Shown: in pieces, positions 6,065-63,900 of the stretch | Layout of the letters: each line of letters starts with the position of its first letter | Numbering within the stretch: position 1 is the first letter of the stretch | NCBI GenBank assembly: GCA_038030265.1 | Contig: CM075940.1 | Coordinates: 17,311,604-17,375,603 of the forward strand | Length of the DNA stretch: 64,000 bases | DNA from: Corythucha ciliata | Lineage: Eukaryota; Arthropoda; Insecta; Hemiptera; Tingidae | Direction: 5' to 3' | Made by a program: the position numbers and the translations under genes | Notes under the pieces: model-generated | Told to the model about the DNA's origin: nothing | The model's input: only the letters and a program-made list of their open reading frames with translations | Database searches by the model: none

Positions 6065-9000
6065 TTACGGTGTTATCGCAGAAGTGTAACCGTCAATTTT
6101 CCCAATCGCAGGAATCTCTGACGAGAATTCAGACGTAGTCCACAAGAAGTGATCCAAAGTTCGCTCCGTGCACTGAGCAATGAATCGTACGAAAGGCCTG
6201 ACGTCGCCGCCGTTTCCTATCTCGAGTAGCTCGTAGTACCTGTTTGAAAGTCTCAAAAATAGAGTACAGCCGAATTCGGTCTTGATTGTATAGCAAGCAG
6301 GGTAGCTGTCCGAAAGACAGTTTAACGGTGAAATTGCTGTTTTGAATGGGTCAACCTCGCGAAATTGGTTTTTATTTAAAGAGAAGCTTCACAGATACCC
6401 CCCCCCCCCAACTCACCAATAGAACCGGAAAATCCGTAACCGTCAATTTTGCTCCGGAAACCGGCTACTCAGCTAGAAATTGCCATTTTAACCCTAATAT
6501 TTGGATTTTGTTATAAAAACTAGCTGAATAGTTCTCCAAAACTGTAATTCATCAAGTTGAAACTTGACATGTAAATCGTCAATTCATCCTCAGAAATTGA
6601 ATGTGCACGGCAATGGTCGTTTCCCTGGTGCAACAGCTGGGGAACTGTTGTAGCCTTCTACTCAGAATTTTCTGTCCACAAACTGACAATTTGGCACCAA
6701 GAAAACGATATTTTATGAGCTTAACTTGAAATTTCGGTTCACTGGGACTCCCCAGGCTTGGTGACTAGTGTGCTGAAGATTTCTCTCCACTTTAATAATT
6801 TATGATCCCCCGTTCATCTGTTTTTCTTCATTCTATTTTTGTCGATTGAAGCCTTAACTTTCGAGGTCTAATTTATAACAACTAGCAAGTTAGATCTCAA
6901 ACTGACCCTTCCGCCGCATACACGCCCAGTTTCTCATAATGGTCACACACCTATGTACTGCCAAGATAGTCCTTAAATCGAGTTTTTGGCCCAAAAGATG
7001 TCCAATTCAGGTCAGCTATCCAACCAGTTACCCGGAAAATCAGGATCTTCCGGGTTTTACGTTGTCCTGGAAACTGACTATCCACGGCGATCTCAAATGT
7101 GTGGAATCGTGTAGTCGAAAGGCGAAAAATCTTAAGAAACTGCTAGGAAACTTCGAAATTTTAGCGCCTGAGCCCTGATTTTTGGTTCGAGGTCCTCAGA
7201 AAGCAGCGACTGACAAGTGAAGTCAAACTTCATCGCCCTACACTTGTCCATTCCTTGAGATCACGCACCAAATAATTGAGTCCTAAGGGGGGGGGGGAGT
7301 GAAAGTATGTGCTCCCCCGTAAGAAAACCTCATGCGGATTTCCCAACAGAAATTGAATCATTTCGGCCTGAAACAGACTAACAGGTGGGGGAAGGGGGCA
7401 ATCGGGCTTTTAAGGGTCAATTAACAGCGCCTGTAAAAGGATAGTGAGGCATTGGGGGCGGAATTCAAATTTTCACCGCCTCAAAAACCAAGTTTCGCCG
7501 CTAAAAATTAGGTGAGCTTTCAAAAGGGGGCAAATTAGAAAAACCAGCCGGCCGAGTAATCATGTGAGTTCGCATGGCTGGATATTAGGGATCGCAAGGG
7601 GAGGGGGGTGAACGAATCGCGCAGGCTCTTTTCCTCCACGGCGAAGAGAGTTTGGTGAGAGGAGGGGGGAATGTAGTCCATGTGAATACCACAAACCACA
7701 GCACGGCATTGACAATAAGGACAGGGAAATACCACGTATTCCCTTTCCGAGGCAGTTTCAAGGAATAAGCGGTCAGTTTTCGTGCCGAAAACTAAAGACT
7801 CCTTGGATCAATCGGCGCTTTTTTGGGGGCGAATTACTGAGTTCCACCTGGAAATACTCCGTGGTCAAATAAGACCAGGGACAACCAACGAGAGACCAAG
7901 ACGTTGGGATCGCGTTCAAAAACCACTCAATCCACAAATAAACAGCTAAGAAACTCACTTTTGACGATCCTGCTTTAAAATTATCACTGGAGGAAACCCG
8001 GCTCTCATTAGAATCATGTTCATGACAAGACGAGCGGTTCGACCGTTGCCGTCGTAAAACGGGTGAATGTGAACGAGGCGATAGTGAGCAAGAGCGGCGT
8101 GCTCGACAGGGTGTAAAGTTTTTCCCCACGTGTTGATCCTTTACAAACAAGAACAAAAATATCACTCAATGTATGACATTTTGGCGTGAGGGAGAGGGTT
8201 ACGGAGAGGCGCTTACCAAATTTCAAACTCATTCATCAGCTTCACTATTTCTGAAGGACCGGGAGGAATGTGATCTCCGACGAACACCTGGGCACGCCGA
8301 AAAAAACCACCTTCGGTGGGGTCAACGTGGCCTAGCACACGTTTATGAATTTCAAGGATATTTTCTATGGTTATATTGCTGTGCCTGAAATAAGTATGCC
8401 ATCAATACATATTCTAGAACTACGAAACCCTGCGGACCAACCTGTTTCCCAAAGTAGCATTCAAGTATTTGACAGCAGAATCTAAGCCTAGAATTTCATT
8501 ATGCTCAGCGATGCTTTTACCTCCAATTGCCATACGTGTTTCAACGATTGATCGCGTCTGCGACAGTGTCATTGTGTTGCCCTCTATTCCAACGGTATGA
8601 TAAATGTGCTGTAACGCAAAAGTATATTACACAAAATCATCACGAAGTTCAGACGAAATCAGGCCGTCTCACCTGAAAATAAGCCTCACGCTTGGCTTTT
8701 CTCAACGCGAAATTCGACTCTGGAATGCTCGCCACACGATCACGTTTTTCGTCGATTTTTTGAAGAATCGACTTATCGATTTCTTCGACGACGGCGGCTA
8801 CACGACGTCTGTTGTCGAGAGCGCCCTGATGACTAGGAGATATTATCAATGCCTGAAAAATGATAAGTTCTCATTAAAATATGATAGTGTAGAAGGTGGT
8901 AAAGGGTAGGCAACTGCCCACGCTTCATCAATTAGAGGGTAAATAAAGTGCGCCTTAAACAGGCTCCCAGGGTACTGCCCCCCCCCCTCTGGTACATTCA

Positions 9001-25272: not shown

Positions 25273-28200
25273 TTGTTGAAGTTGTTGTTGAATTTGTTGT
25301 TGCTGCTGAGCCTGTTGTTGTTGCTGTTGAATTTGTTGCTGCTGTTGAGCCTGAAGTTGATGTTGTTGCAACATAAATTGATGTTCCTCTTCCTGTTGTT
25401 GTTGTTGCTGTTGTTGTTGCTGCATTAAAAGGGTGTTTATCGCTTGATCGCTCAGTTCAATGTTTTTCTCCAAAAACTGTTTGTAAAAAAATAAAAATCA
25501 GCCCTACTCTCATAAATTCACCCCTCCCCCCATCTATCACTCACCGCTTGGTATCTGTTATCCAGGGGATCTTGACTTACTAGCTGAACGCTCTCGCTGA
25601 AACCGTCCATTTTTCTGCGGGGGGGGGGGGATGAGACAATTTCGGACTCACTCAGCTGCCACATTCAAGGTATGTTTAATGTTATTTTTCTCACCTGTAA
25701 GGGGATGGCTTGCTAAGAAGAGTCTCTTGGGACTGTTTAACATCGCTGCCATTTCCATTTTCGTTACCTGAATTGAACAAAAAAATACTGTCAATCCCAC
25801 GCGTCAACAAGATTTCAATGGGAGACTTTCGAGTCTTGGGAAAAAGGGGAAAGTGAAATAATCGTGTTAATCACCTGATTTGGTTAACGACGATTGATTT
25901 CTTAAAAAATTCTGATTGCTATTTAAAAAATTGTTGTTACTTCTGAGTAAGCCCGTGGAACCAGTGGATGGGAAAAACGTCTCGTCTTTTTTTGTAACTT
26001 GAACTGGATAAAAATGAAAAATCGTGGTACAAGCACAGAAGTAAATTGTGTGTTTCTAAATCTTTAGCAAAAATAAGTGAAAAAAAAAAACAAAAACGTT
26101 GCGTTAAAAACTTCTTTAAAGTCTCTCATGCGTTTTACTGGAAAATACAAAAAAAAAGCTCGTATTCTACAGGGTCTCAAGAACATATGTATCCAAAAGG
26201 TTCTTGACTTCTTGTACTCGCTATTATTGCGAACGCTCGTGCACTGTTTTCTTTATGGTAAATTTTTGTTGTCATACTATAAATGCAAAGGCTGTCTGAT
26301 ACTGTGGAGTCAAATTTCGTCTTTTCATAAACGAGCATCGATGCAACATGCAAAAACTGTCGTATTTTTTATGTTTCTCCATTTGTCTACCGCCCAACTC
26401 ACACAATTTTTTTTTTTTTTTTTATTTTAACGCCTCACTAAAGAAAGGAAAAAAGGGAGAACAAACAAGCAACATCACAACTTCACAGGTGTAGCACGGC
26501 TGACAAAACAGATTCAATCAATCGAGCTGGGGGATGGGGCATACGCTACTGTTCGATACCACAATGGGTTTGTTTTTACTTTAAAAGAAACTACTAATGA
26601 ACAAGAGTTAACGAACGCGAAATTTTAATATTTTTTGTGTGTATTTGGGAAAGGTGCTGGGAGAAGAAAGGAAACGTCATGTCGAGACTTGAAATAACTT
26701 AGGTTTCTGTCTTTGTTGAAAGAATGACTAACGCCTGGAGTGGTGGGGGCTGCAGACCTGTTAAAAGTGATGAGAAGAGGGTAAGGGACTGATATACATA
26801 ACAAATTAATGTCACTTCTCTAAACAGGTTGCTTCTACCTGACATGGAGAATAATCTCTTGCCGCTTTTATGCTGTTTTGCCATATTTCCGAGAGCATAG
26901 AAGTTTCCTTCAGAATTTTGGAATGTTTATTAAAACAATAGACGTGTGACAAGCAGCCTTACTAATTATGCTATGAAACGCTAAGCCGCAACCTTTTGTA
27001 ATGCAGGCGTTCAGTGATTTATTTATAATGTTTTGCCATATTTTCGAGAGCATAGAAGTTTCCTTCAGAATTTTGGAAAGTTTATTAAAACAATAGACGT
27101 GTGACAAGCAGCCTTACTAATTATGCTATGAAACGCTAAGCCGCGACCTTTTATAATGCAGGCGTTCAGTGATTTATTTATAATGAACTTGCTCGGCTAA
27201 GAGGTACCTGTTTTAAGTTGATTTAACTTGTCATCGATTTAGAATTTTTCCGCTTTCTCACGAGGCCCCCCTCCCTCTTATTTTTACGTATTGAAAAACG
27301 ATTATTTAAAGAGACAGAAATGGTTCTATTCCAATGATTCCGAACAATATCGGCCCCCCTCATCCCACCACAATTCTTTTGTTCCCCATTTCATGTTGAC
27401 GCTGTCTTGAAAAAAAAACAAAACAAAACAAAACAAAAAACAGTCTTTTGTCACCGTCAAAAGTGCAACAAGGGGCATGAGTGTTGACAAATACTTTTTC
27501 CATCCACGTCCACACGCATGCAACACATGCATGTCAAGAACATCATAATCGAACAAAATATTCATTCTTTTTTTTTAGCTGAATCGATTCCTTCAGCGCT
27601 TCGTAGGAATGATTTTGGCCCCCTCCCCCCTTTCTCGTGAACTCCTACCCGAGGAAATAGTGCTAATGGTCATAGAACAGAAATTTCAGGAACGTCAATT
27701 TATTTTGTGCGCGTGTCTTAACTATTTTTAACATATTTTTCAACGATTGGGTTCCGTCCTTCAAACTTGTTAACCCACTCAATTGAAAATGATGGGAAAA
27801 GCCATGTTTTTCATTGTTCATTACTGTTTTTCGACGAATGAAAACCCTTTTCATTGCTATTGTTTTGAAAAGGGCGAAGAAGTGAGAAAGAGAGAGAGAT
27901 TTAAGTCAATCATTTCTTAGAAGTGTGCCGGGGGGGCGGGGGCAAATAGGAGGGGTCCCCAGTCATTCACCCGATTGAATTGAGGGGCGAACTGAGATTA
28001 TGTAGCAAACCAAAACAAATGTCTTGTGTGCGTTACAGATTTCTTAAGGGAAATCGGCATTATTTGAAAAAGCGTTTGTATTGATTTGGAAAAGAACGTA
28101 ATGGCTGAAATATAAGGGACAGGAAAAACACTGGCTGACCATTCCCCTCCCCCTTCCACATACTAGGCTATATCATTTGCGATATTTTCCTAGCGAATGC

Positions 28201-30279
28201 ATTGTGTGCTTTTGTTGTACAGTGGTAAGAAAAAATGATTGAAACAAAAAAAAAAATTTTTTTTTTCGTATCAAATCATTGGCACCACTATTTAAAAATA
28301 TGCAAGAAATATAACGATATCCAATAATGGAGGTCTAGAGAACGCGTTACCTCCCATAAGACGGCGTTTTCTCAAGCTTGTTACACCGTCACTAGTGGGG
28401 CTGGATATTTCATCTTCTTCCTCGGGTATCGTGTATACCTCGCCCGGACTGTGATCGTAGAAAGTCTCCATAGTGAGCTGTTGTTTCGCTTCATCTTTTG
28501 TTGCGGTCGCGGCTAAGAGTTCAGTCTGGTTATCTTCATGGGAGAGGGACGAGGAGGTTGGTGGGGACAGGGAGAGACGGATTTCTGGTGAATTCAACGA
28601 AGGCGCAGAGTTGGAATACTCACAGTCAGGCAAGCTCGCTCCAGTTGTTCGTGTGTCGTCGTTTCGTTTGTCGTTCTCCCAGCTCTGCAAGAGTTGAGAA
28701 TTAGTAGCTTATAAAGGGAGCGGAGTTTTGAAATTGTGAGCGGTTAAATTGGGACAAACGATCACACTTACTGCACTTTGGAAGTAAGGAGGTTTCTGAG
28801 AAGTGTAACTTTCTTGTCTTTGTAGCCCGAAATCTTTTTTTGAACTCATTGAACCATCGTCCTGCATTTCTTTCACTTGTTGATTGTCGGACATCTGAGG
28901 TAAATGATTAGTCAAACTTTGGTGTTCATCCTGAGACTGCCGGTACTTGTCTGTTCGATGATATTCGTAATTATTGTCATTCGACTGTCCGAAATGATCT
29001 TGAGGTCTATGGTACGGGTCTTGGTGCATAGTTTGGTACTCCTGTTTCTGAATAGCGTTGCTCATTTGTGACTGGAAACCCTGCTGAGCCTGCGTCAATT
29101 GAGGCTGTGGCTGTTGTTGCTGCTGAGGTCGTTTCATGTCTTGCGGCCCAGACATGTACCCTCGGGGTTGAAGATTCGGGTGCATGCTGGGCGGTTGTTG
29201 GTGATGTGGACCCTGCAGCGGTTGTTGCATGCTCTGATGGTGGGGTAAGACTGGCGGCATGTGTCGTGGCATGTCGTGCCTGATTAGAGCATGAGGTCCA
29301 GACATTCTCATGGGACTGGCGTTGTGAGTGGGCCTTAACGGGGAAGAATGGATTTGATTCGTTTAGTATTAAATTTATTATTGCAATAAAACTCGATTGT
29401 GAAAAGAAATCTAACATTGGTTTAGCGGGAGTGTCCATCGCTTCGGCTTTAGCCATTACGTTCTGTATCAAAGCCCTTTCCTCGGCACTTAAGTGACTAA
29501 GATCTAAATTTGATTCTTCAGGGCCTGAAATAAACAAATATTTATTCACATACTTTCTCGTGCGGTCACCTAGAACGTTCAGACTGCTGCTTTGTTTTAA
29601 ATTATGTATGCAGAGACGAGGGGTTTTGAAGAAATTAATTCTGAAATCCTTGTAGACTACCACAAGACTAAATAAATTAGTATTTCAAAGTCTTTTATAC
29701 GACTACTTATAAAGTAATGACCTCAAAAAGTCTGGCATTGCTAACTTTTGAACAATCCACAGCAAATAGCCCTTGATCTAGACGTTTTGAGCATTGAATG
29801 CTCAATAAAACTGTAATTTGTAAATAACGTCGATATTTTGTAGGTATACCACAGAAAATGGACGCGATGAAGCCGCCGATTCAAGCTTATTTGAGCGTTC
29901 TTTTTTTAAAAAAATCCAGTTAGTTTTTTAATCGTTACTACACATATGAAAAAAAAAAAACAATAACTAGTTTGTTCAAATATTGTAAATTGTATGTACG
30001 TTCATGCATTTCCCTCGCTCTTGAGCCCGACTGACTGCTGCGATTGGCTCGTTATAGACTTTTTCAAGTTTAACTAATGGACGAACCTCTAGGTAGTGGC
30101 GGCTGAGGTCGAAGTATTGGCGGTTGAATGCCGGCTGGTCTCATCGGCCTGGGGTATGTCATCTGCTGAAGTCTTGGTTGCGAGGGTCTTATTTGACTGG
30201 GAGGAAGTTGTTGTCCTGCCCCCTCGTTTTCACCCTCGCCGATTAACGAGTTGAGCATTTTACTCGCGAAGCTGAACAT
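18459..30279 (-). CDS. Fife/Piccolo/RIM-like presynaptic active-zone scaffold protein
   Basis: Nineteen exons join in perfect phase: 30087-30279, 29416-29524, 28772-29333, 28351-28684, 25875-26003, 25695-25767, 25545-25614, 24505-25476, 24335-24440, 20867-21498, 20555-20804, 20263-20485, 20043-20206, 19848-19984, 19638-19777, 19440-19533, 19177-19376, 18866-19101 and 18459-18800 (4,966 nt, about 1,655 residues). The start is MFSFASKMLNSLIGEGEN. Exon 2 has DLSHLSAEERALIQNVMAKA, the helix that precedes the zinc finger in RIM/Piccolo/Fife proteins. The centre is Gln-rich (exons 8 and 10). Exon 18 has HHKPRSWQPSPYESDEEEDL followed by a basic helix, IKAEIARRRQQIEENARL, which I associate with the region before the PDZ domain of Piccolo/Fife relatives. 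These proteins organise vesicle release sites at synapses. No PDZ, C2 or complete zinc finger was found, so the protein is either short or its 3' exons are unresolved. The exon chain is far more certain than the family name. Confidence 0.7.
20867..21498 (-). repeat. Gln-rich coding segment (exon 10)
   Basis: The exon encodes a disordered segment dominated by Gln, His, Ala and Met, with runs of up to five Gln. Long antisense frames in this exon are artefacts of CAG/CAA repetition. Confidence 0.8.
21600..22339 (-). repeat. Degenerate short-period array, family A, inverted, in intron 9
   Basis: Repeats read ctaaaaatggccaaactgac, then gattcgcgccc, the reverse complement of the 11150-11890 and 31490-32560 arrays. 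Clear units are near 21865, 21906, 21950, 22116, 22207 and 22239. It lies in the 2.8-kb intron between exons 9 and 10 of the Fife-like gene. Confidence 0.7.
22340..23060. repeat. 21-22-bp tandem array, family F
   Basis: Tandem units of gaaactgtcaatttcgtcct with a period of 21-22 bases, clearest at 22600-22760 and 22840-23058. In one minus-strand frame they encode a KLTVSRT-like seven-residue repeat, a by-product of the 21-base period. No CRISPR structure: the units abut and have no unique spacers. Two short phrases (accatggggtttttaa and an accompanying ttcaggct) recur at 22530 and 22788, indicating a larger duplication. Confidence 0.75.
23060..23650 (+). mobile_element. Penelope-like retroelement relic with GIY-YIG endonuclease
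   Basis: Two adjoining frames resemble the 3' end of a Penelope-like element. The first (about 23070-23206) ends with WVRLPYFGAASLGLDRLL, like the conserved linker after the reverse transcriptase. After a one-base shift near 23207, the second frame runs to 23650 with EVAFKSDNSLKSIL, SGVYRLL, AAYCGRTGRKFQTRFREHL, then KRLECLEKVVIRKEL, the GIY-YIG endonuclease pattern (here VY and YCG). A TGA at 23312-23314 sits exactly where a Cys is usual. The frameshift and stop mark it as dead. It lies in antisense orientation within intron 9 of the Fife-like gene. The RT core is absent. Confidence 0.72.
24505..25476 (-). repeat. Polyglutamine-coding repeat tract (exon 8)
   Basis: The 324-codon exon contains several runs of CAA/CAG Gln codons (longest about 17 residues near 25245-25275). 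The antisense frames rich in Leu or Val over this stretch are shadows. Mixed CAA/CAG usage suggests selection for the protein feature over pure microsatellite expansion. Confidence 0.85.
26004..28350. other. Intron 4 of the Fife-like gene
   Basis: A 2.3-kb intron with poly(T) and poly(A) runs, and the 155-bp tandem duplication at 26874-27183. No coding exon could be supported. Phase continuity between exon 4 and exon 5 is exact without one. Confidence 0.55.
26874..27183. repeat. Tandem duplication of a 155-bp unit
   Basis: Unit 1 (26874-27028) and unit 2 (27029-27183) are adjacent and almost identical. They begin with tgttttgccatat and end with tgatttatttataa. I see only about four substitutions (for example gcaacc/gcgacc, ggaatg/ggaaag), so the duplication is recent. 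Confidence 0.9.
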
Positions 30280-31489
30280 TTTCAACTTGTTCTTTCAAGC
30301 ACCTCGGCTTAACCCCCGGGTGTTCCCCTGGCCTCGGCTCCGGACTTGTACTCTCACACACACAAAATATGTAATTAAAAAAAAAAATCAACCCATCATT
30401 TTCCCCCTTTTCAAGTGTGACAAGTCTACGCGGACGACACACTATGATGTAGTACGCCCCAATCGATAATCGTGACCCGCGCAGGCGTTTCCATTTCATC
30501 GTTTCTCGTAAATACGTTTGCCTCATACCTTTTATTAACCTTCCAGATGGCATCTTAAGAGCTTTCATTCAGAGCGAAAATGAATTTCGATGCATGAGCA
30601 GGCCTTAGCTGGCAGCATTTTGAACTAGAACCTGCCACGTCCTGGCAGTTTATGACACCCATGTCATTCATCCATTTCTGACAAAAAACGAACATTCATC
30701 CCCGCCCCGGTCATTTTTTGCTTCCCTGATTTTAAACTAGCTGTTTTGGTCCCAGAATTTCTTTACTGTGCCGAATATTTTTTTTAAAAAATTGGTATTC
30801 TAGTTTCGGCCCGAATACGTAGCAAAGATTTCTGTTCACCTCTGTCTGAAACCTACACACTCAAGGGAAAGCGGCTAAGTCTTCTCGTCTCGCTTGATTC
30901 GAGTGAAATTACTGAAGTTGGGGCCCCCGGGCCTTGGATAAGATTTGTCTTGGTGGGGGGGGGGGAGGCTCAAAAGTTCCTAGTTTAGTTCCAAAAATAT
31001 CACTTTCTCGGGGAAAAAATTGTCGGTTATTCAATATAGTCAGAATGCAACAACGACAGTTTTCCGGCAGAGATGTTAGGTTTTGACCGTTAACTACCTA
31101 TCTGTACTAATTCAGTTTCTGGGTTCGGATTTACGATTACCCGCGCCGAGTTTTGAGTTGATAAACTACGGAGTTCTCTTTTTGGTGATTCATTCCTGAA
31201 TATAGGCAGGCTACGCCCCTGCAGTGAATAGCGATTTTTAGGCTTTTACCAAAAAATAAGCGTTTCTCCCCAATTTTATTTGCGAATGAGTCTTTCTCGA
31301 TTTTAGCCATTGAGAACTAGCAATTTATTTTGCTTTAGGCATGAATTAGCACTTTCCCAGCAATGAAGTAACCGCTGGAAACCGTAAATTTTCTCAATTG
31401 AATGAAGTGAGTAAGACCTTTTTCTTCATTTGAACCGCGGAAACAGTGAATTTCTGATTTTTCAATTTTAGCTATGATTGAGCGCTAAT
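30280..31489. other. 5' flank of the Fife-like gene
   Basis: Likely promoter side of the Fife-like gene. It contains G and C runs (near 30955) and, at 31230-31460, phrases of family B in inverted orientation (ccaattttatttgcgaatgag, tcgattttagcca). No gene was found. Confidence 0.4.
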
Positions 31490-32560
31490 CAGTTGAGGTG
31501 CAAAATCGTCAGTTAAAGCCATTTTCAGAGAGTGATCGGTTAATTTATGCCATTTTCAGGACACGAATTCGTCTCTCCATCTATCGTCGTCTATTCATTT
31601 TTAGCGCACGAGTTTGGCCAATTTTAGGGCGCGTAATTAGCTACGTCAAGCAATTTTTTAGCTCGGAAGTACTCCAGTTCATCTATTCTTGTGGGGGGGG
31701 GGGGCTCCTGTTTGGTGAGGGGATGACGGTGTCAGTCTATCGTTTAAAATGCGTGAATTGCCAGTTTGGCCATTTTTTGGGTACAGATTAGCTATTTTGA
31801 AGGCGCCATTCGTCCAGTTACGCTGTCTGTAGGATGCGTGTGATCAATTTGGTCAATTTTGAGCACGATTTGCCAGTTTGCCATTTTTAGGGCGCCAATT
31901 TTTATTTTTGTTATTTTTAGAGCGCGTATATCGTCAGCCTAGGCGTTTTTGGCGAAAATTATCAGTTTAGCCTTATTTGATGCGCATAGTCTCATTTTTG
32001 CAATTTTTTACGACACAAATAATCCGTTAAGCCAGGGCGGAACTAGTCAGTTTACCATTTTTTAAGACATGAAATGCCAGATTGGCTATCTTTAGAGCGT
32101 AGATTGTGATTGCCGCCATTTTTAGGGCATGAATAATCAGTTTTGACTATTTTCAGGGGATGAATAGTCAATTATTCTCAATGAATCGTCAGTTATACAT
32201 AAGTCAAGTTTAGCCATTTTCAAGGCGCGAGGCACGAATGGTCAGTTTAGCTATTTTTATTTTAGGAATAGCCAATTTAGATGTTTTTAGACTGAAAATA
32301 GTCAGTTAAGCGAATCATAAAATGTTGCTTCAATCAACGCCGATTATCCTTGCTTTCGTGAATGATCATGATTTTAGCCATTTTCAAGTGGCGAATCGTC
32401 ATTTTTGCCATTTTTCGGACGTTAATAGTCAGTATATATTATCAATTTTGGAACGGAATTATGTAGTCAAGTTTGCCATTTTAAGGCGCCAAAAGTTCAT
32501 CAAGCCATTTCTAGGGCGCGAATAGTCGGTTTGTCATTTTTAGGGCATGAATTGCACTAA
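31490..32560 (+). repeat. Degenerate short-period array, family A
   Basis: About 35 diverged units of gtcagtttagccatttttag, then ggcgcgaata, spaced about 25-35 bases. Clear ones are near 31607, 31753, 31870, 32095, 32218, 32365 and 32506. It lies immediately upstream of the 1.8-kb inverted-repeat element. Confidence 0.75.
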
Positions 32561-32733
32561 AGTCAAGGTAGAGTAATTATGCACTAATGGTGCACCTCGC
32601 TGGGTCCGAGAAAATCGGTTGAAATCAATGACCTCGCGAAACGCTCATTTTGGGCCTCTTTAAGGGGTTCTGGCGGTCACTCTAGTTGCTTTTCGGGCTG
32701 GAACCGCGTTATATTTGTCGGTTGATCATGGCC

Positions 32734-34548
32734 ATGGGCGTAGCCAGAGGTGGGCAGTTGCCCTCCCCTAGACTCGAAAGCGAAGACTTAGTGGGGCGGC
32801 TGCCCACCCATGGATACTGTCGGAGTGTACAAATCCTTCAGGACCGCAACATTTTGTTACGTTCACGCTCACGAAAAAAATTAATTGCCCAATTTAGCTC
32901 ACTGAAAACCCCAATATCGAGGATTTTTGCGCCCTAAAAATAGATTTTCGCAGATCTGACTCAACTAAGAGACGAATTTCTCATAATATGAATAGCATCA
33001 AACCCCCAATTTAAAAAAACATTTTCACGCGTTTGGCTCACTTGGCGTTGGCAAATTCCCCTATCTAAAAAACATCAATTCTCGGATTTGTTACCCGAAA
33101 GCCTTGAGTTTTGGTGGATGAAAAAACAATTTTGTGGGGTTGCCTAATTCAACAACTGATTTTGCAGATTTTTCATGCCAAAATGGCCATTTCCGCAGGT
33201 TCAACTAACTGAAAACCCAAGTTCTCGGATTACGCTTCTCCGAAGTCTAAAATCGCCAGCTTAGTGATAAAATTAGCAGTTTTGCGCAAGAATCACAATA
33301 TCAATACCTATAATACTAGAATCGCCATGTTTGTGCTAAAATCGCCAGTTTCTATGTAAAATTTTTAGTTTCGAGATAAAAATAATTGATTTATTTTTAG
33401 GGTGGTGAGTCGTAATAGTTTCGGCGTTTATATCGCGTAAATTTTTCCAGTCAGAGGGTAAAAGCGTCAGTTTTAGTGTCCAACTTACTGAGCAGAACAG
33501 AACTTACACGATCAGAACTTACAGTCCAACGTACAGAAAATGTTGAGTTCTAAGGGGAAACGCTCAGGAGTAAAATATCCAGTTTTGGGCTACAACAGTG
33601 TAATCACTTTTGGGGTGGAATAACCACCAGTTAGAGTAAAATCGTCAGTTTAGGTAATTAACGTGAGTTTTTGGGATGAAATCGTAAGTTTTGAGGTTAA
33701 AACCGTCATTCGTTTCGGATGAAATTGTCGGTTATTGTAATGAAATATAGGGAACAACACTTCAGATCGGGAGTAAAATCGTCAGCTTCAGAGTAAGATC
33801 TTTCCTTTTCGGTTGAAACAAAGTTCTTTTCATGGTAAAATAAACCTTTTTGGGGTAAAATATTCCTTTTTGACGGGGATCCGAAAAGTTTTGGGGGAGT
33901 ATTGTGGTGAAATTGTCGGTATCATCGTCAGTTTTAGTGTATAACGTGAGTTTTGGAGGTAAAATCGCCAGTTGTGATGAGAAAACTTCAGTTTTGGGGT
34001 AACACTTCGGCTTTTGCGTGAAATTGTCTGTTTCAGAATAAAATATTCATGGCGTTTTCCAATCAATGCAATACACATGTGTGTTGTAAGTTTTCCCACC
34101 CGTCCTCTCTGATTGAAACAAATGTTTACGGAGAGGACGGTGCACTACACTTGTGTAGTGCGTTGAATCGAAATCGCTATCAGTTCCAGAGTAAATTCTT
34201 CAGTTTTGGGTTAAAACTAAATTTCAGTTTTCATCTTCTCTCAAGCAAGTAGTTGAAAATTCGGACTCCCTGTATTGGAAGGCTAAACTCTTCCTACAAG
34301 TATCAATATTTCTGGGGGAAAACATTGTCAGGTTTTGGACAGAAAATCTTAAATAGAAGGCTACAACGATATTTTACAATAGGAAATGTTAGTTTTTGAC
34401 GGATTCTGACCATTTTTGTGAAAATTCAGTTATACTGAGGGGAACAATTGACGATTTAAAGTGCCTGTATCTAAATAGGCGAGCCAGAAGTTTTCTGGTG
34501 CATCTGACATCTTCTGCCCACCTCTAGGCCAAGTGCTGGCTACGCCTC
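32734..34548. mobile_element. 1.8-kb non-autonomous element with inverted ends and 11-bp target duplication
   Basis: The left end reads atgggcgtagccagaggtgg. The right end, reverse-complemented, reads gaggcgtagccag, then after a 10-base insertion agaggtgggcag. Both ends are flanked by the same 11 bases, tgatcatggcc (32723-32733 and 34549-34559). The flanks join to a sequence whose relatives, without the insert, are seen near 40060 (gagcattgtccgagggactt), so an empty-site equivalent exists. The interior codes for nothing. It consists of family D phrases (about 32860-33240), then family C phrases (ggtaaaatcgtcagtttt, about 33240-34260). Related left halves are at 51486 and 62702. The superfamily is unknown. 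Confidence 0.72.
34069..34161. repeat. Cluster of three palindromes inside the 1.8-kb element
   Basis: A near-palindrome at 34069-34086 (caatacacatgtgtgttg), a 10-bp stem CCGTCCTCTC (34100-34109) with GAGAGGACGG (34131-34140), and the hairpin gcactacacttgtgtagtgc (34142-34161) follow one another. The surrounding family C phrases are interrupted here, so this may be a separate small insertion. Confidence 0.6.
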
Positions 34549-34559
34549 TGATCATGGCC

Positions 34560-35510: not shown

Positions 35511-38500
35511 GTCGACGACGGAATAGAAATGTTTTTTCTTTTGCCGCCGTACGATACTGGCTGAGCAGTTTTTTACTTGGAGCGTCGGTGACTTCATTCC
35601 TATTTTATTATCTCTTTCTTGACCACCACGGTAAGCATAAAAATTTAACGTGATTCATTTTATTTGTATCGTTGTTTTTTGTGCGTGTGTATGCGCTTTA
35701 AATGTCGAAGCAGACATATCTTGAGTTTTCGGCCCTGAAAACGGAATATTTGGCTGTATAAGTCATAAAACTGACTAATCACCTCAGAATAAGGCCACCC
35801 ATCCCTGGTTTTGTTAATGACGTCCAAGATGGGTCTCTCGTTTTTTTTTTTTAGTTTTCAAAAGACTTTCCCACTTTTTTTCCTTTCGCAGTTCCCAAGA
35901 ATGTCCTCGGATTCAACGGGCGGGAGGCTCGACTTGCGGGTCGGGTTCGTGAAATGGAAGAGCAGAATCAATTGCTTCGACACCAGTTGAGCATTTCCCA
36001 AAATCATCTGGTCGCCGCTATGAAAATAGGCAACGTCTCTTCCGTAAGAGAGTCGGTGTCTCCTCTGCCCACCACCACAAACTCCGAGAGGAGAAATACG
36101 CCGGCCTGTCCGACTCAGGTTGTTTCAGAATTAAAGCCAGAACTGTTTTCAGAAGTCGTAATTCTATTTTTATTTTAAAAGGACGAAGACGTTCCAAAAT
36201 GTCACGTGATACACATAGCCATAGTCTGCGCTGGATACAATTCGAGTCGATCGGTGGTAACTCTACTCAAGTCGATTCTGTTCTACAGGAAAAACCCATT
36301 ATTTTTCCACATGATATCCGACTCTGTAGCTCAAGTCATCCTTCAGACTTTGTTCAATTCGTGGAACGTCCCCCAAGGTATGCAAGTCAAGTTAGCGCCA
36401 GCTCTTTAGCTTAATCCGTCCTCTTTTTAATCGTCCAGTCGATGTCCACTTCTACCTCGCTGATAATGTTATTAATGACGTTTCCTGGATCCCTAATAAA
36501 CACTATTCCGGTGTATATGGGCTGATGAAACTGACTCTTCCGAAAATCCTTCCCGAATCTTTGGATCGGGTAATAGTTTTGGACACTGATGTGACGTTTG
36601 CAACTGACGTTGCCGAGTTATGGAAAATATTTTCGAAATTCAGGCACAAACAAGTGCGTAGAACAACCATAATAATGAAATTCTTCCATTAAATGGATGT
36701 TTTTTTGAAATTGTTTCAGAGTATTGGTTTAGTTGAAAATCAGAGTGATTGGTATTTGGGAAAATTGTGGAAAAAACATCGACCCTGGCCAGCCCTTGGA
36801 AGAGGGTACGCGATGACTTACATTTGTTTCGAGATTTTCGTTTTAATTTGAAACTGAATTCAGGTATAACACGGGCGTAATAATGCTCGATTTAAAACAA
36901 TTGAGGGACGGTGGCTGGGGTCAGCTGTGGCGACAAATCGCCGAGCGTGACCTTATGACTCACTATACGACCAGCCTAGCCGACCAGGACATTTTCAACG
37001 CCATAATTAAACAGTACCCCGACTTGGTGTATAAGTTACCGTGTCAATGGAACGTTCAGTTGAGCGACAATACTAGAAGCGAGCTGTGTTATTCTGAAGT
37101 TACTGATCTCAAGGTAATTATAACTGTGGGACTATATTTTGTTCTTTAGTGACAAACTGGATTGTTTCTACAGGTGATACATTGGAATTCTCCAAAAAAA
37201 CTCAAAGTCAAGAATAAACACGTTGAATTTTTTCGAAATTTATATTTAACCTTCTTGGAATATGATGGCAACCTGCTGAGACGTGAGCTTTTCAGTTGCA
37301 ATTCAACTCACTCTACGCGTCTAGAGCACGAGCTGAGCAAAGTACGAGGCCTGTACCCCCTTCCCCTACATGATATCTCTAACTCTCGTACTTCTTTCAA
37401 GTTGAACGAAGAAGATCTATGTTATGAATTCAGGAGAGCAAGACTTAACAACTATAGGAGTCACTTATATTTCCTTCATTATGACTATGAACCAAGCCCA
37501 GAAGGTAATGACGTAACGCTTGTGGCTCAGCTATCTATGGACAGGCTTCAGATGGTTGAAATGATGTGCAAACACTGGGATGGTGTGTTGTTTGCTTAAT
37601 GTTTATGACATTGTGCGTGACAGACACTTTATTTTCAGGTCCAATATCTTTAACGTTGTACCTTTCCGATACTGAAGCCCAACAATTTTTAAGTTACGCT
37701 CTAAGCTCAGAAGTTTTGAGTAGTAGAAAAGACATCGGTTACCATATCGTTTACAAAGAAGGAGTAAGTAAGTTAGGGCTGTTATATTGAACGGTATTGA
37801 GCACTTTTTACTTTTACAGAACTTTTACCCCGTAAATTTTCTTCGAAATGTTGCGCTACAACAAGTCCACACTCCCTACGTTTTTCTGACAGACATTGAC
37901 TTTCTTCCAATGTTTGGGCTCTATACTTACTTGAAGAAATCAGTTCAAACTCTTGATTTAGACAGTTCTAAAAAGGTAATTACTCGCGCGTTATTCTGCC
38001 CAGTACGCCCCTCATTGAACTGTCACTTCTCCAAGGCCCTAGTCGTCCCAGCGTTTGAAACTCAGCGCTACCGTACCACTTTCCCACGTAGCAAGGCTGA
38101 ATTGATTCGAATGCTCGACATGGGTACGCTTTTCACATTTCGATACCACGTGTGGGCCAAAGGTCATGCTCCGACTAATTACGTCAAATGGCGAGCCGCT
38201 ACCAAATCTTACGCTGTGAATATTATATCCACCCCCGCCCCCCGGCTCTCATTCTGTGTTCCTAACTCCCCTCGTTTCAACTTCTACAAGGTTCAATGGG
38301 AACCAGACTACGAGCCGTATATCGTCGTTAAAAAAAGTCTGGTCCCAGAGTACGACAACAGATTCGTCGGCTTCGGTTGGAATAAAGTCTCTCACATAAT
38401 GGAACTAGAAGCCCAAGGGTTCTCATTTATTGTTCTTCCAAACGCTTTTATCATTCATATGCCTCATGCCCCGAGTTTCGACATCGCTAAATTCAGAGGC

Positions 38501-38668
38501 TCGGCTCAGTATCGAAAGTATGTATTTTGTGTGTGGGTGAAACTATTAATGGACGGCAAGCGCATGACGTCATTTTTATTGTTCAGATGTCTCAAAATTT
38601 TGAAAAACGAATTCGTCAAGGACTTGGAACAGAGGTATTCAAGAGCTTTTGAAACTGAAGGAAGTTGA
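35511..38668 (+). CDS. LARGE1: LARGE xylosyl- and glucuronyltransferase (matriglycan synthase)
   Basis: Twelve exons: 35511-35630, 35892-36118, 36182-36377, 36439-36653, 36720-36805, 36864-37113, 37174-37582, 37639-37763, 37820-37975, 38036-38215, 38291-38517 and 38587-38668. All phases fit and total about 757 residues. The first listed exon has no ATG, so one short 5' exon is missing. It encodes RRR followed by a hydrophobic segment ([20 protein letters not shown]), a type II Golgi anchor, then a coiled coil ([13 protein letters not shown]). The GT8 domain has [22 protein letters not shown] and DTD in VLDTDVTF. The GT49 domain has the DID in TDIDFLP plus GFGWNK and [14 protein letters not shown] alternately adds xylose and glucuronate to alpha-dystroglycan so that it binds laminin. 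Both catalytic motifs are intact. Confidence 0.95.
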
Positions 38669-40600: not shown

Positions 40601-41510
40601 GCTCTACTAAGAATTCTTCGCTGCCTAAAAATAGCTAAATTAGCTATAAAACATACTCGCGCCCAAAATTGGCAAAACTGACGATTCACGTCTTGAAAAT
40701 AGCTAAATGACTATTTATGCCCGGAAAATAGTCAACTGACTTCACGTGCCCTAAAAATGGCTAAACCAACGATTCGTAAGGCCCTTAAATTCCTGAAAGA
40801 TCATGATTCCCGTCATGAAAATGACCAAACTGACAATTCGTGCATTGGTTTGACAGACTATTGCCCCCTGAAAACGGCTACTCGCGCCCAGGAAAGGCCT
40901 AAACAGACTATTGCAAAACTGACCAATGACGAAACTGACCGTTCGCACCTTGACTTGACCATTGGTACCCTAAAATGGCAAAACTGACTATTTCCGACTT
41001 GAAAATAGCTAAACTGAGTATATGTCCGCTAAAAATAGCCAAACTGACAATTTTCTCACTGAACAGGTGATTCCTGCTCCAAAAATGGCATAAGAGACTA
41101 TAAGCACGCAGAAAATGCCCAAACAAACCGTTCTCGTCGTGGCTTAACATACTACATATTTACTTACGCCCTATGAAGGGCAAAACTGGCCATATGCGTC
41201 CTATGAATAGCCAAACTGGGCATTCAAGTCATAAAATCGGCAAAACTGACTTCCATCAGTTTTGAGCCAGAAATGTGCTCTAAAAAAAGATAAACTGACA
41301 ATTTGCGCCTTGAAAATACCCAAACAGACGATCTGAATTTGACCTGAAATTGAAATTGAATCAAATTTGACCTGAAAATGGTCCATATGTTTTGCCCTAA
41401 AAATGGCAAAACAACAATTAGCACGTCAAAAATCGCCAAACTGAGCCTTCACGGCTTGAAAGTTTTTGAACTGACGATTCATGCCCTAAAAATAGCAAAA
41501 TTTGCTATTA
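40601..41510 (-). repeat. Degenerate short-period array, family A, inverted
   Basis: Units of aaaatagctaaactgacnat, then ttcgcgccctg, spaced 25-40 bases. Clear ones are near 40665, 40696, 40745, 40970, 41005, 41036 and 41400. It is the reverse complement of the 31490-32560 array. Confidence 0.72.
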
Positions 41511-42389
41511 CTGCCATAGAAATTCCGCCCTGTATAGAGGCTACAGGATGTTAATGGCGATTCGTGCCAACAGAATGGCTCTCTGTACCAAAAAAGTGGA
41601 GTTCGCGAACCGAACATGGGCTGTCTCCACCTTACCAATCGCCCCCCACACCCCTCCCAGCAACGCACCCTAAAGGACTGGATAAACTGGCCACTCTCGA
41701 GCTGTACAATTGCTTGACGGGCTAATCAAACCGAAGATATATAAATAATAATATAATTATGTAATTTTGAAAACCCATCCCAAGAAAAAGTCTTGGGCGC
41801 CCCACTGCTTCAGGGGCTGCTGCGTTTCGGGGTGAAACCGGGCTGTATTTTTTCGCTAAACATGCTTCGAGGGACTTCAAGCCATGTCTGACTCTAGAAC
41901 CCTAGAGATTGCGACCATTCCCTAGGGTTTGCGAGGAAGATGTGAGAAAGTGACCTCCAAATTTGATGGTCTTAGCACTCACAAACCCCAATTACGCTAA
42001 TTTTGCTCTTTCATAAAGCCATTGACTTCCTGAAAAGCCAATTTGGCCCGCATTCCAAAGATAAATTTCGCCTGGCTCCTTTCAACTACACAATTTCGCT
42101 TGCTTGGCCCATTCAAAAGCCAATTTTGTGTGATGGGCACACTAAAGCGGTTTTGTCTTACTCGAAAAGCCTATTTAGTCGATCCGGCTTATTCAAAAAT
42201 GAAAAGTAGTAAAGTTAGCTTATTAAAAACAATTTGCGGTGGGTTGGGAAAACAACATTTCTCGGGGTTTGGTTCACTGTAAAATGCTATTTCGAGGGTT
42301 TCAGTGCATAAAAAGCAAAATTATGCTCTTTTAACTCATCCAGAAGACAATTTCGCATTTTTTTTGCGAAACACAAACAATTTTTTTGT
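41511..42389 (+). repeat. Family D repeats flanking the Ty3 fragment
   Basis: From about 41990 the text consists of diverged units like gcccattcaaaagccaattt, then tgcgggtttggct (about 30 bases). The Ty3/gypsy fragment breaks off within this array near 42390. The part before 41990 shows no gene. Confidence 0.55.
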
Positions 42390-44010
42390 CAATTACCCTT
42401 TGAAAGCACGGGACGCCATTAGTTACACCGGAAGGAATCCTGCAAAAATGGTACAGCTGACCACAAGCTTCAAAAGCGGTGTATGGTTTCTCGTCGTCGG
42501 AAATAGGGATTTGGTGGTACGCACTTTTTAGGTCAATTGCGCTAAAAACAGAATGCGTGGCCACTTTTCGAACCAATTCATCAATGTTTGGTAACGGGTA
42601 TGTATCTAGCAACGTGAAGCGATTGATAGTCTGAGAGTAATCGATGCATAGCCTTTTCTTTTTTTCATTTTGCACAATGAGGACTTGAGCTCTCCATGGT
42701 GAACAACTCTCTTCAATGATTTCGTCCTTGAGTAATTTAGTCACTTCCTCTTTGATAAACTGGTAATCTTCAGTTGAGAAACGCCTGGATTTCGTGGCTA
42801 TAGGTCTACAGTCCGGAGACAGATTTGCGAATAATCTTGGAGGGTCGACTTAAGCGCACGCCGATGCACAAACAGATAAGGTAGATTTGTCCCCTCCAAA
42901 TGAAACGTTAACGTCTGAATGTTGTTTCATCAGATCGTGACCGACGAGTAGATCAGTGCAGAGGTCACGAAGCACAGCAAATTGAAAATTTTGGTAAAAA
43001 TGACCTTGAAGGTGGAAATCAGCAGTGACATAACCCTTGATCGTGGAAGACAGCGCCGTAGAAGCCATAGATACTTTTCCTTCTCGAGCGTCAAAAGGAA
43101 TTCCATGGCGTTTGATGAATGAAAAATCAACAAAACTTATTGAACTTCCAGTATCTACGAGACAATTGGCAGGAATATTGTTTAGCTTCGCTTTTACCAC
43201 ACTTTTCGAGAGAATAGTAGTTGCTACTCCTCTTAGTAATGCTGAGGAAAGAGAACTTCGCCCTTTTGACATACAAACTTTTGCGAAGTGTCCTTTCTTT
43301 TTACAGTTATTGCACAGAGATTCACGAGCAGGGGACATTTCTCGAAAGTGACGTCTTCCACCGCAAAAGAAACATTTTTTGTCCGATTTCGTTGTTGCTG
43401 CAGCTAGAGGTTCACTTTGAGGTGATTCAATATGAGTGTTCACTGATGAACAACTAGACACATCAACATGCGATGATTGAGAGTAAAACTCCGAGTGATT
43501 ATGGGCCATTTCCAAAGACTGAGCTTGTTTTACTGCTTCCATAAGAGTCAACGCGTCGTTTTCGAGTAGACGTTCTCGAATGTGAGGGGAAGCAAGCCCA
43601 GCAATAAAAGCATCGCGAATGTACCCATCTCGGTGGTCAACCGCACTCACAGCTTCGAATCCACAATCTTTGCTAAGAATTTTTAGATTCTGAACGTATT
43701 GATTGACTGATTCTCCAGGTTGTTGTTTTCTGACCGCTAATTGGTGTCGCGCAAAAACTTCGCTCTTCTTTTTGGCATAGATTGAGTCTAATGATTCGAT
43801 AACGGTTGCATACGACTTGTGTTCTTCAATCAACTCAAATACTGAAGGTGAGAGAAAACTGATGATTATCTTCAGTTTGTCATCGTCTTTCGTGATTCCC
43901 GCGATTTCAAGAAAGTTATCGAACGTAATCTTCCAATGGTTCCATTCTTTTGCAGCAGAAGGAGAGTCAGAATCCGTCTCAAATTTGTTTGGACGAATAA
44001 ACTTCTCCAT
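42390..44010 (-). mobile_element. Truncated Ty3/gypsy-type LTR retrotransposon (gag-protease-RT)
   Basis: On the minus strand an ATG at 44010 opens a 386-codon gag-protease frame. It contains an alpha-helical capsid-like region (about residues 1-170), two zinc knuckles, and the aspartic protease motif LVDTGSSISFV followed by GHDLMKQH. A TAA at 42850-42852 ends it. Beyond this stop the same frame continues without interruption into the N-terminal half of reverse transcriptase, with LPNIDELV, FSAIDLKSAYHQIPI and FQRVID. Similarity ends near 42390, before the YxDD box, where repeat DNA begins. The first knuckle lacks its final Cys; the second (CNNCKKKGHFAKVC) is intact. No LTR or primer-binding site was identified. 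It is a 5' fragment of a degraded element. Confidence 0.85.
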
Positions 44011-49758: not shown

Positions 49759-51485
49759 TTTTGAGTGAATAACTTCAACGCCCACAAGTGGAAAAAAATA
49801 TGCTTGTACATCGTCATACTTCCGCTATGATGAGGTTGTAAGAAAAAAAAACTCCCGTGTTTAACGTTCGCATAACGACATTTGTTTTCCTAATTTATTT
49901 TAACATGACATCCTTTGAAGATATTTGTATTATTTTACCAATTTCAATGTTGCCTTTCTATTTTTCGAACCACCAGTGCCTAAAAAATGAAATATTGTCC
50001 CTACTTTAAGCAACAGAAGGTAAAGCTAACGGACGAAAATAGTTCAGTTTGCGTCATTTAAGAATTGTTACAGGTTTACCATGACTATTTTATATGCTAC
50101 CGTCACCCCCCCCACGCCCCGCCTAAATTTTTCTTCATTCTGAAAGTAAGAAAACTGTTCCTCAACTCTTGAAACTGAGGTCAATTTTTTATTCGGAGAC
50201 GCATTCGGCTTTATGGTGCTTTAAAAGTTTTTTTTTTTTTTTTTGTAAGCTAATTTATCTAACATGAAAATAAAGATGTAATTTATACGATTCATTTGAC
50301 AGTTTCTTCGTGCTTTCGTTCCTGTTGTGAATGGTGTGTGTCCCTCGATGAGCAAACAAGCATTTAAGCTTGTAACATCCTCATCAAGGAAATACTCGAA
50401 CTCCTCCGTAATTTCGAGTTGTTTTGTATTCAATTTATGCGGTACACAAAAAATGACCGAGTCATCAAGCGTGGAAGTGGGAATGGCGCGACGGAGAGGG
50501 ATTGATTTCCCCCGGTCGTACCCCCCCCCCTCTGACCATGATGTTTCATTCAAGATGACTCATACAGTTTGGGTGAGGCGCCTCCGCACTGTTAACGATT
50601 ATTTTTAAATGGCTTTCTGCGTCATTCGACTAGTGTCTGGGTTAGTTCAATTCTTGGGCGATCCCCAAGTATACGAATTGTGTAACCTAATTAGAGACTA
50701 TTTAGTCTATTTCTGCTGCTTCCTGAAGAAGGAGCGGGTGAAAATTGTCTTATTTCACCCTCGAAACTGGCCAGTATTCTCCTCTAACTAAACTAACAGT
50801 ACAGGAGATACAAAGAATTACCCCGGAAACATATTCATCCAGATCCAAAGCACCCTAAAACGCTAGAATCGTGGGGTGAACACCTTTCAACTAAGGTGAC
50901 CAGACATCCTTTCTTGGCGCGTCCGGGCTCGTTTTTCAGATCTCCGGGGAAAGATCAAACTTGTCCTCCTTTTCGATCTTACAATGAACCGACCGATTGT
51001 CTGGTTTACCCACCAACATCAAGCGTGGCGCTTAGCGGCATTGTCCCCACCTGTCACCGTTTCGCACTCACGGTTCTCATCAGCCCTGGAGAGCCGGGTC
51101 CTCCCTGGATCTGTTCTGCCAGTGCCCGGATCTAAACATTTTACCTTAGTAAAATCCCCTCTAGGGTGAGGGAGCTTGATTATGCCACCCATAGGTGTAG
51201 GGAGGGGGTGCCGTTCGAACAATTTCGCGAAATTGTCTTTTTCGATGAGCTATCACCGTGAAATTTGGTTTTTAATTAGTCAACGCAGAAATTTATTTAA
51301 TTTCTTTTTCTAGGATCAAACTTCCCACGATTTGTATTGAGAAGGACGACCTTGCGATCTTATTTGAAGGGAGTTAGTTGAGACCCGCGAAATTGACTTT
51401 TGGAGTGGTCATATCGCGCGAAATTGGTTTTCATGGGGAAACCGGCCCCACGATATTAGTTTTTGACAAGTCAACTCCGCGATCA
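49759..51485. other. Intergenic region downstream of the small heat shock gene
   Basis: The first few hundred bases are probable 3' UTR. A 110-codon minus-strand frame (50221-50553), containing IPTSTLDDSVIFCVPHKLN, looks less random than its surroundings and is followed on that strand by an AATAAA near 50193. It could be a terminal exon of an unassigned gene, but it matches nothing I know. Confidence 0.3.
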
Positions 51486-52000
51486 TGAGCGTAGTCAGAT
51501 GGTTGCCCTCCACTAGAGACGAAAGCGATGATTTAGTGGGGCAGCAGCCCACCCCTAGATACCATCGGAACGTACAAATCCTTCTGGGTTGCCACATTTT
51601 GTTTCGTTGACGCCCACTAAAAAAAAAAAAAAAAAACTAATTTCGAGAATGTTTGCGCCATAAAAATACGTTTTCGCAGCTCTGACCCAACTAAATGCAA
51701 ATTTCTCAAATTCGGCTTTGTAAAAATCCAATTTTGCGACTTTTTCTCGCAATTTTTTTTTGCGCTGGTCACTGAAAAAATAATTTCGCGGGATTGGCAC
51801 TACAAAACCCGATTTCACTCACTTTGCCCACAAAAACCATTTCTGCGCGTTTGCCTTACTTAAAACCAATTGCTCAAATTTCGCTACCTAAAAAACATCA
51901 ATAGGCGGATTTGATAAGCCGCCCCACTAAATTGGTAGAGCGAAATCCAAGAATTTTGTTTTCAGTGAGCCAGATCCAGGAAAATGTTTTTTTTAGGTAA
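51486..52000 (+). mobile_element. Partial copy of the 1.8-kb inverted-repeat element (left half)
   Basis: It begins gagcgtagtcagatggttgc and continues with the same internal order as the copy at 32734: ttgccctccactag, gatttagtggggcagc, tacaaatccttc, then family D phrases (cgttttcgcagctctgaccc). Divergence is considerable and no right end was found. An A run (51618-51635) interrupts it. Confidence 0.6.
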
Positions 52001-57041: not shown

Positions 57042-57078
<37 letters not shown>

Positions 57079-62699: not shown

Positions 62700-63640
62700 C
62701 ACGGGCGTAGCCAGAGGGAGGCAGGGATAGGCTGCTGCCCACCACTAGGTACTTTCTGAAAGTATAAATCCTGCAGGATAACCACATTTGGTTTCGTCGG
62801 AAGTCACATAAACAAAATAATTACGAGGATTTTTGTTGCGCACAAAACAAATTTCAGCAAGGGTGACATAATTCAAAGACTATTTTCGCGGTTTCTGCGC
62901 CCTGAAATACCGTTTTCGCAGATCTGACACAACAAAAAAGCCAAATTTTCAGATTTGGCTTCTCTGAACAAAAAAAAACACCTGAAACCCCCAGCTTAGT
63001 GCTAAAATTGCCAGTTTTTGGCCAAAATCACAATTTAAGAGCATCGTAAAATCTCAGTTTTTTGTGCTAAAATCGCCATTTTTGCGCTTATAAGGGCCGG
63101 GTTGACAGTGTCTGTTTGAGCGTTGTTAAGGGTTTAAACGTTTCTGTATGCAAAAGGCTAATTTTATGATTGGGGTATAAGCTCAGCTTAAGGATAAACG
63201 AGACTTTGAACCCATGTGGTCAACCCGGGCCTAAATCGCGATTAAATAGCCGTTTTGAGCTAAAATTACCAGATTCCAGGTAGACCCACTGAAGTTGTTT
63301 AAGGTGAAATCGCAGGATTTCCAGGGAAAACATCAGTTATCAGTTGACAGCTTTAGGGTAAAAACTTCAATTTTAGGTTAAAACTCGTCAGTTTTGTGAT
63401 ACAACTGACGGTTTTGAGCTAAAACCTTTAGTTTCAGGGTATTTCTCTTTGAGGGAAAACTGGTAATATTAGGTGAAATCTTCAGTTTTGTCTTGAAATC
63501 GTCAGTTTTCAAGGCAGTCGTAAACAGAGTTTGGCGTGAAATCATCTGTTTACGGAAAAACGCCAGTTTTGAAGTTAAATATCCAGTTTTGAGGTAAAAT
63601 CATCATTTTTAGTGGGAACCGCTAGTTTCAGGATAAAATC
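62700..63640 (+). mobile_element. Second long copy of the 1.8-kb inverted-repeat element (left part)
   Basis: It starts cgggcgtagccagagggagg, follows the same internal order as 32734-34260 (gctgcccaccactagg, tacttt, tataaatcctgcaggat, ttttcgcagatctgac, then cccccagcttagtgctaaaa) and runs into family C phrases (taaaatcgtcagttttg). No right end or target duplication was found in the window. A MITE (63094-63231) is inserted in it. Confidence 0.65.
63094..63231. mobile_element. Second MITE with TAA/TTA target duplication
   Basis: A 138-bp segment begins GGGCCGGGTTGACAGTGT and ends with gtggtcaacccgggcc, its imperfect reverse complement. It is flanked by TAA on both sides (63091-63093 and 63232-63234). 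Its size and target match the MITE at 56255, but the end sequences differ, so it is another family. It interrupts a family C array. Confidence 0.78.
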
Positions 63641-63649
63641 GTCGGTTGG

Positions 63650-63900
63650 CTCATTAAAACCAAATTTCACGCTATTAACCAGTTCAGAAGGCGATTTCGT
63701 GGAGTTGGCGGATTAAAAACAAAATTTCGCGAGCCTGGCTCCCCCCTGTAAATGCAAAATTTGCCAGGTTTCATCGCATCAAAAACAAACTTTTTCGCTT
63801 TTGAACCATCCAAATATCCAATTTTGATGAGTTGACGCTTTGAAAAAAACAATTTCGCTTTTTCAAACCCCTAATATCGTGGATCTACGATCTACATTAA
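63650..63900 (+). repeat. Family D repeats
   Basis: Units such as ggcggattaaaaacaaaatt, then tcgcgagcctggct, of about 30 bases up to about 63880. The final 100 bases of the window show only G-rich simple text. Confidence 0.55.

Follow-up and report, generated by a model that had tools for sequence, protein, structure and literature searches.

A probable non-autonomous hAT-like transposon with two families of degenerate tandem repeats in Corythucha ciliata

Introduction

Members of the hAT superfamily of DNA transposons are described as having short terminal inverted repeats (TIRs) and 8-bp target-site duplications (PMC3942097), and Tip100, a hAT element of morning glory with the TIR CAGGGGCGGAG, is reported to have made 8-bp duplications in medaka at 3 of 3 reported insertion sites (PMC12511174). 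Galileo, a member of the P superfamily, is described with duplications of 7 or 8 bp and with three copies whose TIRs are extended by internal tandem repeats (PMC4168063). A bacterial MITE with an internal minisatellite has been reported (PMC4596501), and the periodic An/Tn clusters (PATCs) of Caenorhabditis elegans are described as a class of non-coding DNA (PMC7725773). Judged by titles and the opening lines of abstracts, the combination of a hAT element with internal tandem repeats was not found among the papers listed, which is no proof of its absence, and a search for the element's end sequences as printed text returned no transposon paper by title.

In this study, we describe an insertion of 1818 bp at positions 32733..34550 of a stretch of 64,000 nucleotides (64 kb) from Corythucha ciliata, hereafter the window, and we show that it is very probably a non-autonomous DNA transposon of the hAT type, long dead, whose interior holds two arrays of degenerate repeats in series. 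Moreover, we demonstrate that repeats with the same unit lengths are found in the window outside the recognised copies of this element.

Results

Boundaries and target-site duplication

The 11-mer TGATCATGGCC is present at 32723 and at 34549, and the identity cannot be extended beyond these 11 bases. In the preliminary description it was taken as the target duplication of an element at 32734..34548. The identical flanks are real, but the 11-mer is made up of the 8-bp ATCATGGC together with TG and C; these extra bases also form the outermost positions of the element ends, a match that would be a coincidence of about 1 in 64. With a duplication of 11 bp, three bases precede GGCG on the left versus two on the right, which puts the inverted ends out of register, and for this reason the 11-bp length was rejected. 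Flush ends are obtained with duplications of 10, 8, 6, 4, or 2 bp and with neither 11 nor 9 bp; the end match is best with 8 bp (13/15) and reaches 12, 12, 11, and 11 of 15 with the others. In the 10-bp reading (12/15) the terminal C common to five ends falls outside the element. All five ends found in the window with at most 3 mismatches (CATGGGCG, CATGAGCG, CACGGGCG, CAGAGGCG, and CAGGGGCG) begin with CA while the outer neighbouring base varies; since the consensus used for the search began with CAG, this result is biased towards CA starts, though mismatches were allowed. Because 8 bp gives the best flush ends together with the shared CA start, the duplication is best read as ATCATGGC and the element as 32733..34550, so that the existence of the element stands and its coordinates are corrected. 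The length of the duplication was observed in one insertion, as the window holds no second copy with both ends.

32725..32732, no strand: left copy of the 8-bp target-site duplication ATCATGGC, identical to 34551-34558 (flush-end analysis)
32733..32747, plus strand: left terminal inverted repeat CATGGGCGTAGCCAG, 13/15 against the reverse complement of the right end
34536..34550, minus strand: right terminal inverted repeat, CAGAGGCGTAGCCAG in inward reading
34551..34558, no strand: right copy of the 8-bp target-site duplication ATCATGGC

The end motifs GGCGTAGCCAG and AGAGGTGGGCAG lie at both ends in inverted orientation and without mismatch, as had been described, and the spacing between them is 12 bases longer at the right end than at the left. 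The first of the two is also exact at 62704; with at most 2 mismatches it occurs 10 times in the window against 6.3 expected, which is unremarkable alone. In the joint-configuration test the ends match 13 and 14 of the 14 fixed positions of CAGNGGCGTAGCCAG, and under a simple independence model about 5e-10 such pairs of ends with an 8/8 duplication would be expected by chance in the window.

Modules and coding content

Between its ends the element is composed of the following parts:

32733..32872, plus strand: left-end module with a subterminal hairpin (arms 32749-32763 and 32794-32808); nhmmer matches 51485-51616 (E 4e-23) and 62701-62797 (E 3e-8)
32854..33220, plus strand: family D, 10 degenerate units of about 30 bp, called by a profile trained on the array region itself; the weaker array
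33240..34045, plus strand: family C, 24 degenerate units of about 20 bp with the consensus TAAAATCGTCAGTTTTGGGG, likewise called by a profile trained on the array region itself
34046..34182, no strand: long imperfect palindrome beside or inside the C array; nhmmer minus-strand self-match E 3.8e-9, DNA fold z -5.7
34240..34550, plus strand: right-end module with AGAGGTGGGCAG (minus strand, 34514-34525); nhmmer matches to 30964-31149 (+) and 6565-6704 (-), E about 1e-9

Both arrays are periodic, with a lag of 20 in 33240-34060 (z 7.5) and a lag of 30 in 32860-33240 (z 3.9), the mean shuffled maximum being 2.6, and the C-type units are 64-83% identical to a reference unit. The earlier view that the interior consists only of two phrase families is thus right about D and C and incomplete, in that the palindrome at 34046-34182 (137 bp) and the right-end module at about 34240-34550 are also present. 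The palindrome is possibly a nested insertion or a fold-back; its only other matches in the window at E < 0.01 are C-like repeats belonging to this element, and no second copy of it was found there. The 15-bp hairpin of the left end has a fold z of -2.8, and equal stability was reached in 1 of 200 shuffles.

No stop-to-stop ORF of at least 120 aa overlaps the element, which agrees with the interior having been described as lacking coding potential, and the element therefore looks non-autonomous. Nor was a hAT domain found in the 17 ORFs scanned against Pfam, out of 25 ORFs of at least 120 aa in the window. Rfam gave 0 matches at gathering scores and tRNA genes were likewise 0; the 21-base end motif had 0 exact matches among viral contigs.

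Coding sequences also lie elsewhere in the window. Two ORFs at 42331-44028 contain aspartic protease and reverse transcriptase domains of a retrotransposon remnant, which we take to be Gypsy-like. A LARGE-type glycosyltransferase is encoded at 37153-38668 (Glyco_transf_49 in 37772-38668; best match 71%, best named relatives from spider and cockroach, which points to an arthropod as host), and an exon of an Erv26-type membrane adaptor at 59427-59858 (Pfam PF04148, E 4e-29).

Copies of the element in the window

The window contains three left ends and, besides that of the first copy, two right-end modules, which are distributed as follows:

51484..51960, plus strand: second copy, left end CATGAGCGTAGTCAG followed by D repeats; right end not found
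62700..63720, plus strand: third copy, with left end CACGGGCGTAGCCAG followed by D and C in that order; no right end found up to the edge of the window
30964..31221, plus strand: fourth copy, represented by its right end alone, with terminus CAGGGGCGTAGCCTG (31207-31221 read as reverse complement); no left end found
6565..6704, minus strand: right-end module without a recognised terminus (E 8e-10)

By the joint score of end and duplication, the window yielded no right end for the copies at 51484 and 62700 and no left end for the copy at 31221. The reading as a mobile element is borne out by the loss of homology between copies at the proposed left ends: for those at 32733, 51484, and 62700, local alignment scores were 226, 86, and 93 over the first 300 bp inside and 20, 20, and 24 over the 300 bp outside, where the shuffle means were 21-24. 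Homology running past both ends, which had been named as the observation that would speak against an element, was thus not seen on the left. On the right it was not clearly seen either, since the copy at 31221 scored 81 inside and 30 outside, the largest of 100 outside shuffles being 31. As the aligned pieces of the copies are only about 60-67% identical, the family appears to be old.

Two of these copies had been placed at 51486 and 62702, both with the order end, D, C. With the coordinates corrected to 51484 and 62700, this order holds for the latter; the former has the end and D, and no C match was found in 51600-52140. In 51610-52200 the D phrases are in forward orientation as far as about 51900, beyond which they match the other strand (at 51954 and 51986), so that the interior of the copy at 51484 is possibly a fold-back. 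The C array of the first copy is colinear with 62982-63649 of the copy at 62700, and the two arrays aligned in their true unit order score 173, as against 84 +/- 13 (maximum 119) in 300 shuffles of the order. Because the unit order is shared, the ancestor of the copies at 32733 and 62700 already carried C, which was not regrown in each copy.

Similar repeats outside the element

When trained in the element, the C profile has 53 matches outside it (shuffles 10.2, largest 14) and the D profile 25 (shuffles 4.0, largest 9). The copies at 51484 and 62700 account for 14 of the C matches and 9 of the D matches, and the rest are elsewhere; D-like phrases at 60900-62600 and the C' repeats at 22350-23060 lie outside recognised copies. 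For families A, B, and F, no such ends were found with as many as 3 mismatches allowed, a search that more decayed ends beside them could escape. The link that had been drawn between the word-like repeats and a mobile element therefore holds for C, which travels with its unit order, and does not extend to the word-like repeats in general, given that C- and D-like phrases and families A, B, and F occur outside.

A period scan was performed over 637 overlapping windows of 400 bp at lags of 17-45 bp, leaving out those with strong lags of 1-7. A strong period was found in 46 of these scan windows, compared with 1, 1, and 0 in three Markov controls; it was 20 or 21 bp in 11 of them, 30 or 31 bp in 26, and other in 9. 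Seven of the last group fall on long glutamine-rich ORFs (20.8-21.4, 24.9-25.3, and 28.8-29.4 kb) and two have a period of 44, so that 37 of 39 non-coding positive windows have 20-21 or 30-31 bp. Averaged over the whole window, lags 8 and 9 are raised besides 21, 30, and 31. Tandem Repeats Finder, which favours better-kept copies and is not confined to 17-45 bp as the lag scan is, also gave periods of 12, 13, 15, 23, 25, and 155 bp, among others. The 155-bp unit at 26867-27185 (2.1 copies, 96% matches) is a better-kept duplication, unlike the degenerate arrays.

Arrays of several families with units of 20-21 or 30-31 bp, in most of which A/T runs are phased at about 10 bp, are found outside the element at 10950-11500, 15200-16000, 16850-17500, 22350-23060, 31500-32560, 40750-41350, 44650-45100, 53330-54000, and 60900-62600. 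Cyclic profiles were made for families A, B, C, C', D, and F. Matches are strong between regions within a family (z 7.3-12.1), and a weak likeness across families is seen for A-C, C'-C, A-C', and F with C or C' (z 2.9-4.3, 60 permutations); B and D reach z 2.5-2.7 with other families in one pairing each among the pairs above z 2.5. Part of the agreement in unit length may therefore reflect common descent, given the weak likeness among A, C, C', and F and the dependence between regions within a family.

Helical phasing and predicted curvature

The A/T content of the arrays is correlated at lags 10, 20-21, 30-31, and 40, and the rest of the window has the same peaks, weaker. Along the unit, the one-turn harmonic of A/T content is the strongest in 11 of 13 array regions, which were selected for periodicity and among which families recur. 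Curvature was predicted from wedge angles. The predicted curvature of the consensus exceeds that of column-permuted units in 10 of the 13 regions (p <= 0.03), and that of the real sequence exceeds dinucleotide shuffles (z >= 2.3) in 10 of 12 array regions versus 2 of 7 control stretches, namely 28292-29362 (z 2.5) and 54100-60800 (z 4.4). The region 51000-51450, which has little array signal (0.167 versus 0.160 and 0.138 in its two shuffles) and a curvature p of 0.72, was left out of the real-sequence test. The predicted excess over shuffles is not significant for family F (z 0.3) or for the D array of the element itself (z 1.5), whose consensus gave p 0.12 against column-permuted units, and for single regions the run-order control has little force, with p between 0.04 and 0.79 among the 13. 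We regard the helical phasing of the arrays, with predicted curvature raised in most regions, as a lead and not a result.

Discussion

The assignment to hAT is based on the exact 8-bp duplication ATCATGGC beside flush ends in one complete copy, and on short CAGNGGCG-like TIRs as in Tip100, to which the termini CAGAGGCG and CAGGGGCG fit fully while all five ends start with CA. The terminus CAGGGGCG, at 31221, equals the first 8 bases of the Tip100 TIR CAGGGGCGGAG. Against the assignment stand the occurrence of both ends in a single copy, the lack of a hAT domain in the 17 of 25 ORFs scanned, the 12 additional bases between the end motifs on the right, and the identity of about 60-67% between the copies. 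The copies share their ends and the first has no ORF of at least 120 aa, as expected for a non-autonomous element. Classical MITEs are short (under about 600-800 bp), homogeneous, and of high copy number. With 1818 bp and aligned pieces about 60-67% identical, the element is too long and too heterogeneous for that class, and we therefore file it as a non-autonomous hAT-like element and not as a classical MITE.

A plausible course of events can be outlined from these features. A transposase of hAT type, supplied in trans by an autonomous relative elsewhere, would have bound the ends and the subterminal repeats, excised the element, and joined it to a staggered target, giving rise to the 8-bp duplication. 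The ends would be the part required for movement; the D (~30-bp) and C (~20-bp) degenerate arrays, already present in the ancestor, would have been carried as cargo, and the element would since have died.

It had been proposed that the duplication does not fit the 8-bp superfamilies, and its length of 11 bp appeared to point to an unusual one. That proposal is withdrawn in favour of an 8-bp duplication with flush ends starting with CA. Duplications of Mutator-like elements (MULEs) are commonly 8-11 bp, and a non-autonomous MULE with a target duplication of 11 bp (or 9-10 bp) would account for the identical 11-bp string that does border the element on both sides. We consider this highly improbable and have rejected it, because 11 and 9 bp do not give flush ends, and the 10-bp reading, at 12/15, leaves the shared terminal C outside; there is hence no satisfactory duplication of 9-11 bp with flush ends, and the termini resemble those of the hAT element Tip100. 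P-type elements can have CA...TG ends. An element of the P superfamily, or of another group with 8-bp duplications such as Merlin, would be compatible with both the ends and the duplication, and Galileo duplications are reported to be 7 or 8 bp (PMC4168063). Such an origin is unlikely in our judgement, given that the CAGNGGCG-like terminus fits hAT and Tip100, in a comparison made with hAT ends. Finally, two end-like words could have come together amid degenerate repeats with no transposon involved, for the neighbouring DNA is rich in repeated phrases and the count of GGCGTAGCCAG is 10 versus 6.3 expected (at most 2 mismatches). Chance can hardly be credited in view of the joint expectation of about 5e-10 for ends and duplication, for which it was rejected, and of the homology between copies, which stops at the left ends. 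The hAT-like transposon is the reading that we retain.

As a transposon, the element is ordinary, one more old hAT-like passenger. Its arrays raise a wider question, as at least three groups of repeat families (A, C, C', and F, weakly alike; B; and D) share within 64 kb the same two unit lengths and an A/T rhythm of about 10 bp. We tentatively suggest, as an idea that is rather doubtful at present, that the word-like repeats of the genome might be one physical kind of DNA, with units of two or three helical turns and A/T runs one turn apart, curved or easily wrapped, for which hAT-like elements would be one vehicle. The length of the units might then depend on the helix, by way of nucleosome wrapping or turn-wise duplication, and not on the sequence. 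Should the pattern prove to be genome-wide, it would provide natural material for testing whether minisatellite units owe their length to helix geometry or nucleosomes, and whether such DNA is seeded by transposons.

In PATCs, the A/T runs are spaced by about one helical turn. They resemble the present arrays in being non-coding DNA with A/T runs one turn apart, and differ in that the phasing here lies inside arrays of degenerate 20- or 30-bp units. Among transposons, Tip100 and its relatives are close in their CAGNGGCG-like termini and 8-bp duplication (PMC12511174), whereas the copy described here has no ORF of at least 120 aa, carries the inner end motif GTAGCCAG, and is strongly degraded. 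The Drosophila hAT MITEs BuT2 (PMC3942097) and mar (PMC3517528) are reported as gene-less copies with hAT ends, those of BuT2 being short and having 8-bp duplications. The short BuT2 copies of D. willistoni, described as 532-927 bp and thought to be products of internal deletion, differ from the 1.8-kb element with its tandem arrays. Non-autonomous elements with an internal tandem array are described in miDNA4, a MITE of Xenopus tropicalis, and in the Helitron-Helentron elements DINE and CgHINE (PMC9659126). According to these descriptions they are of the Tc1/mariner and Helitron types, whereas the element of C. ciliata combines hAT-like ends with two array families in series.
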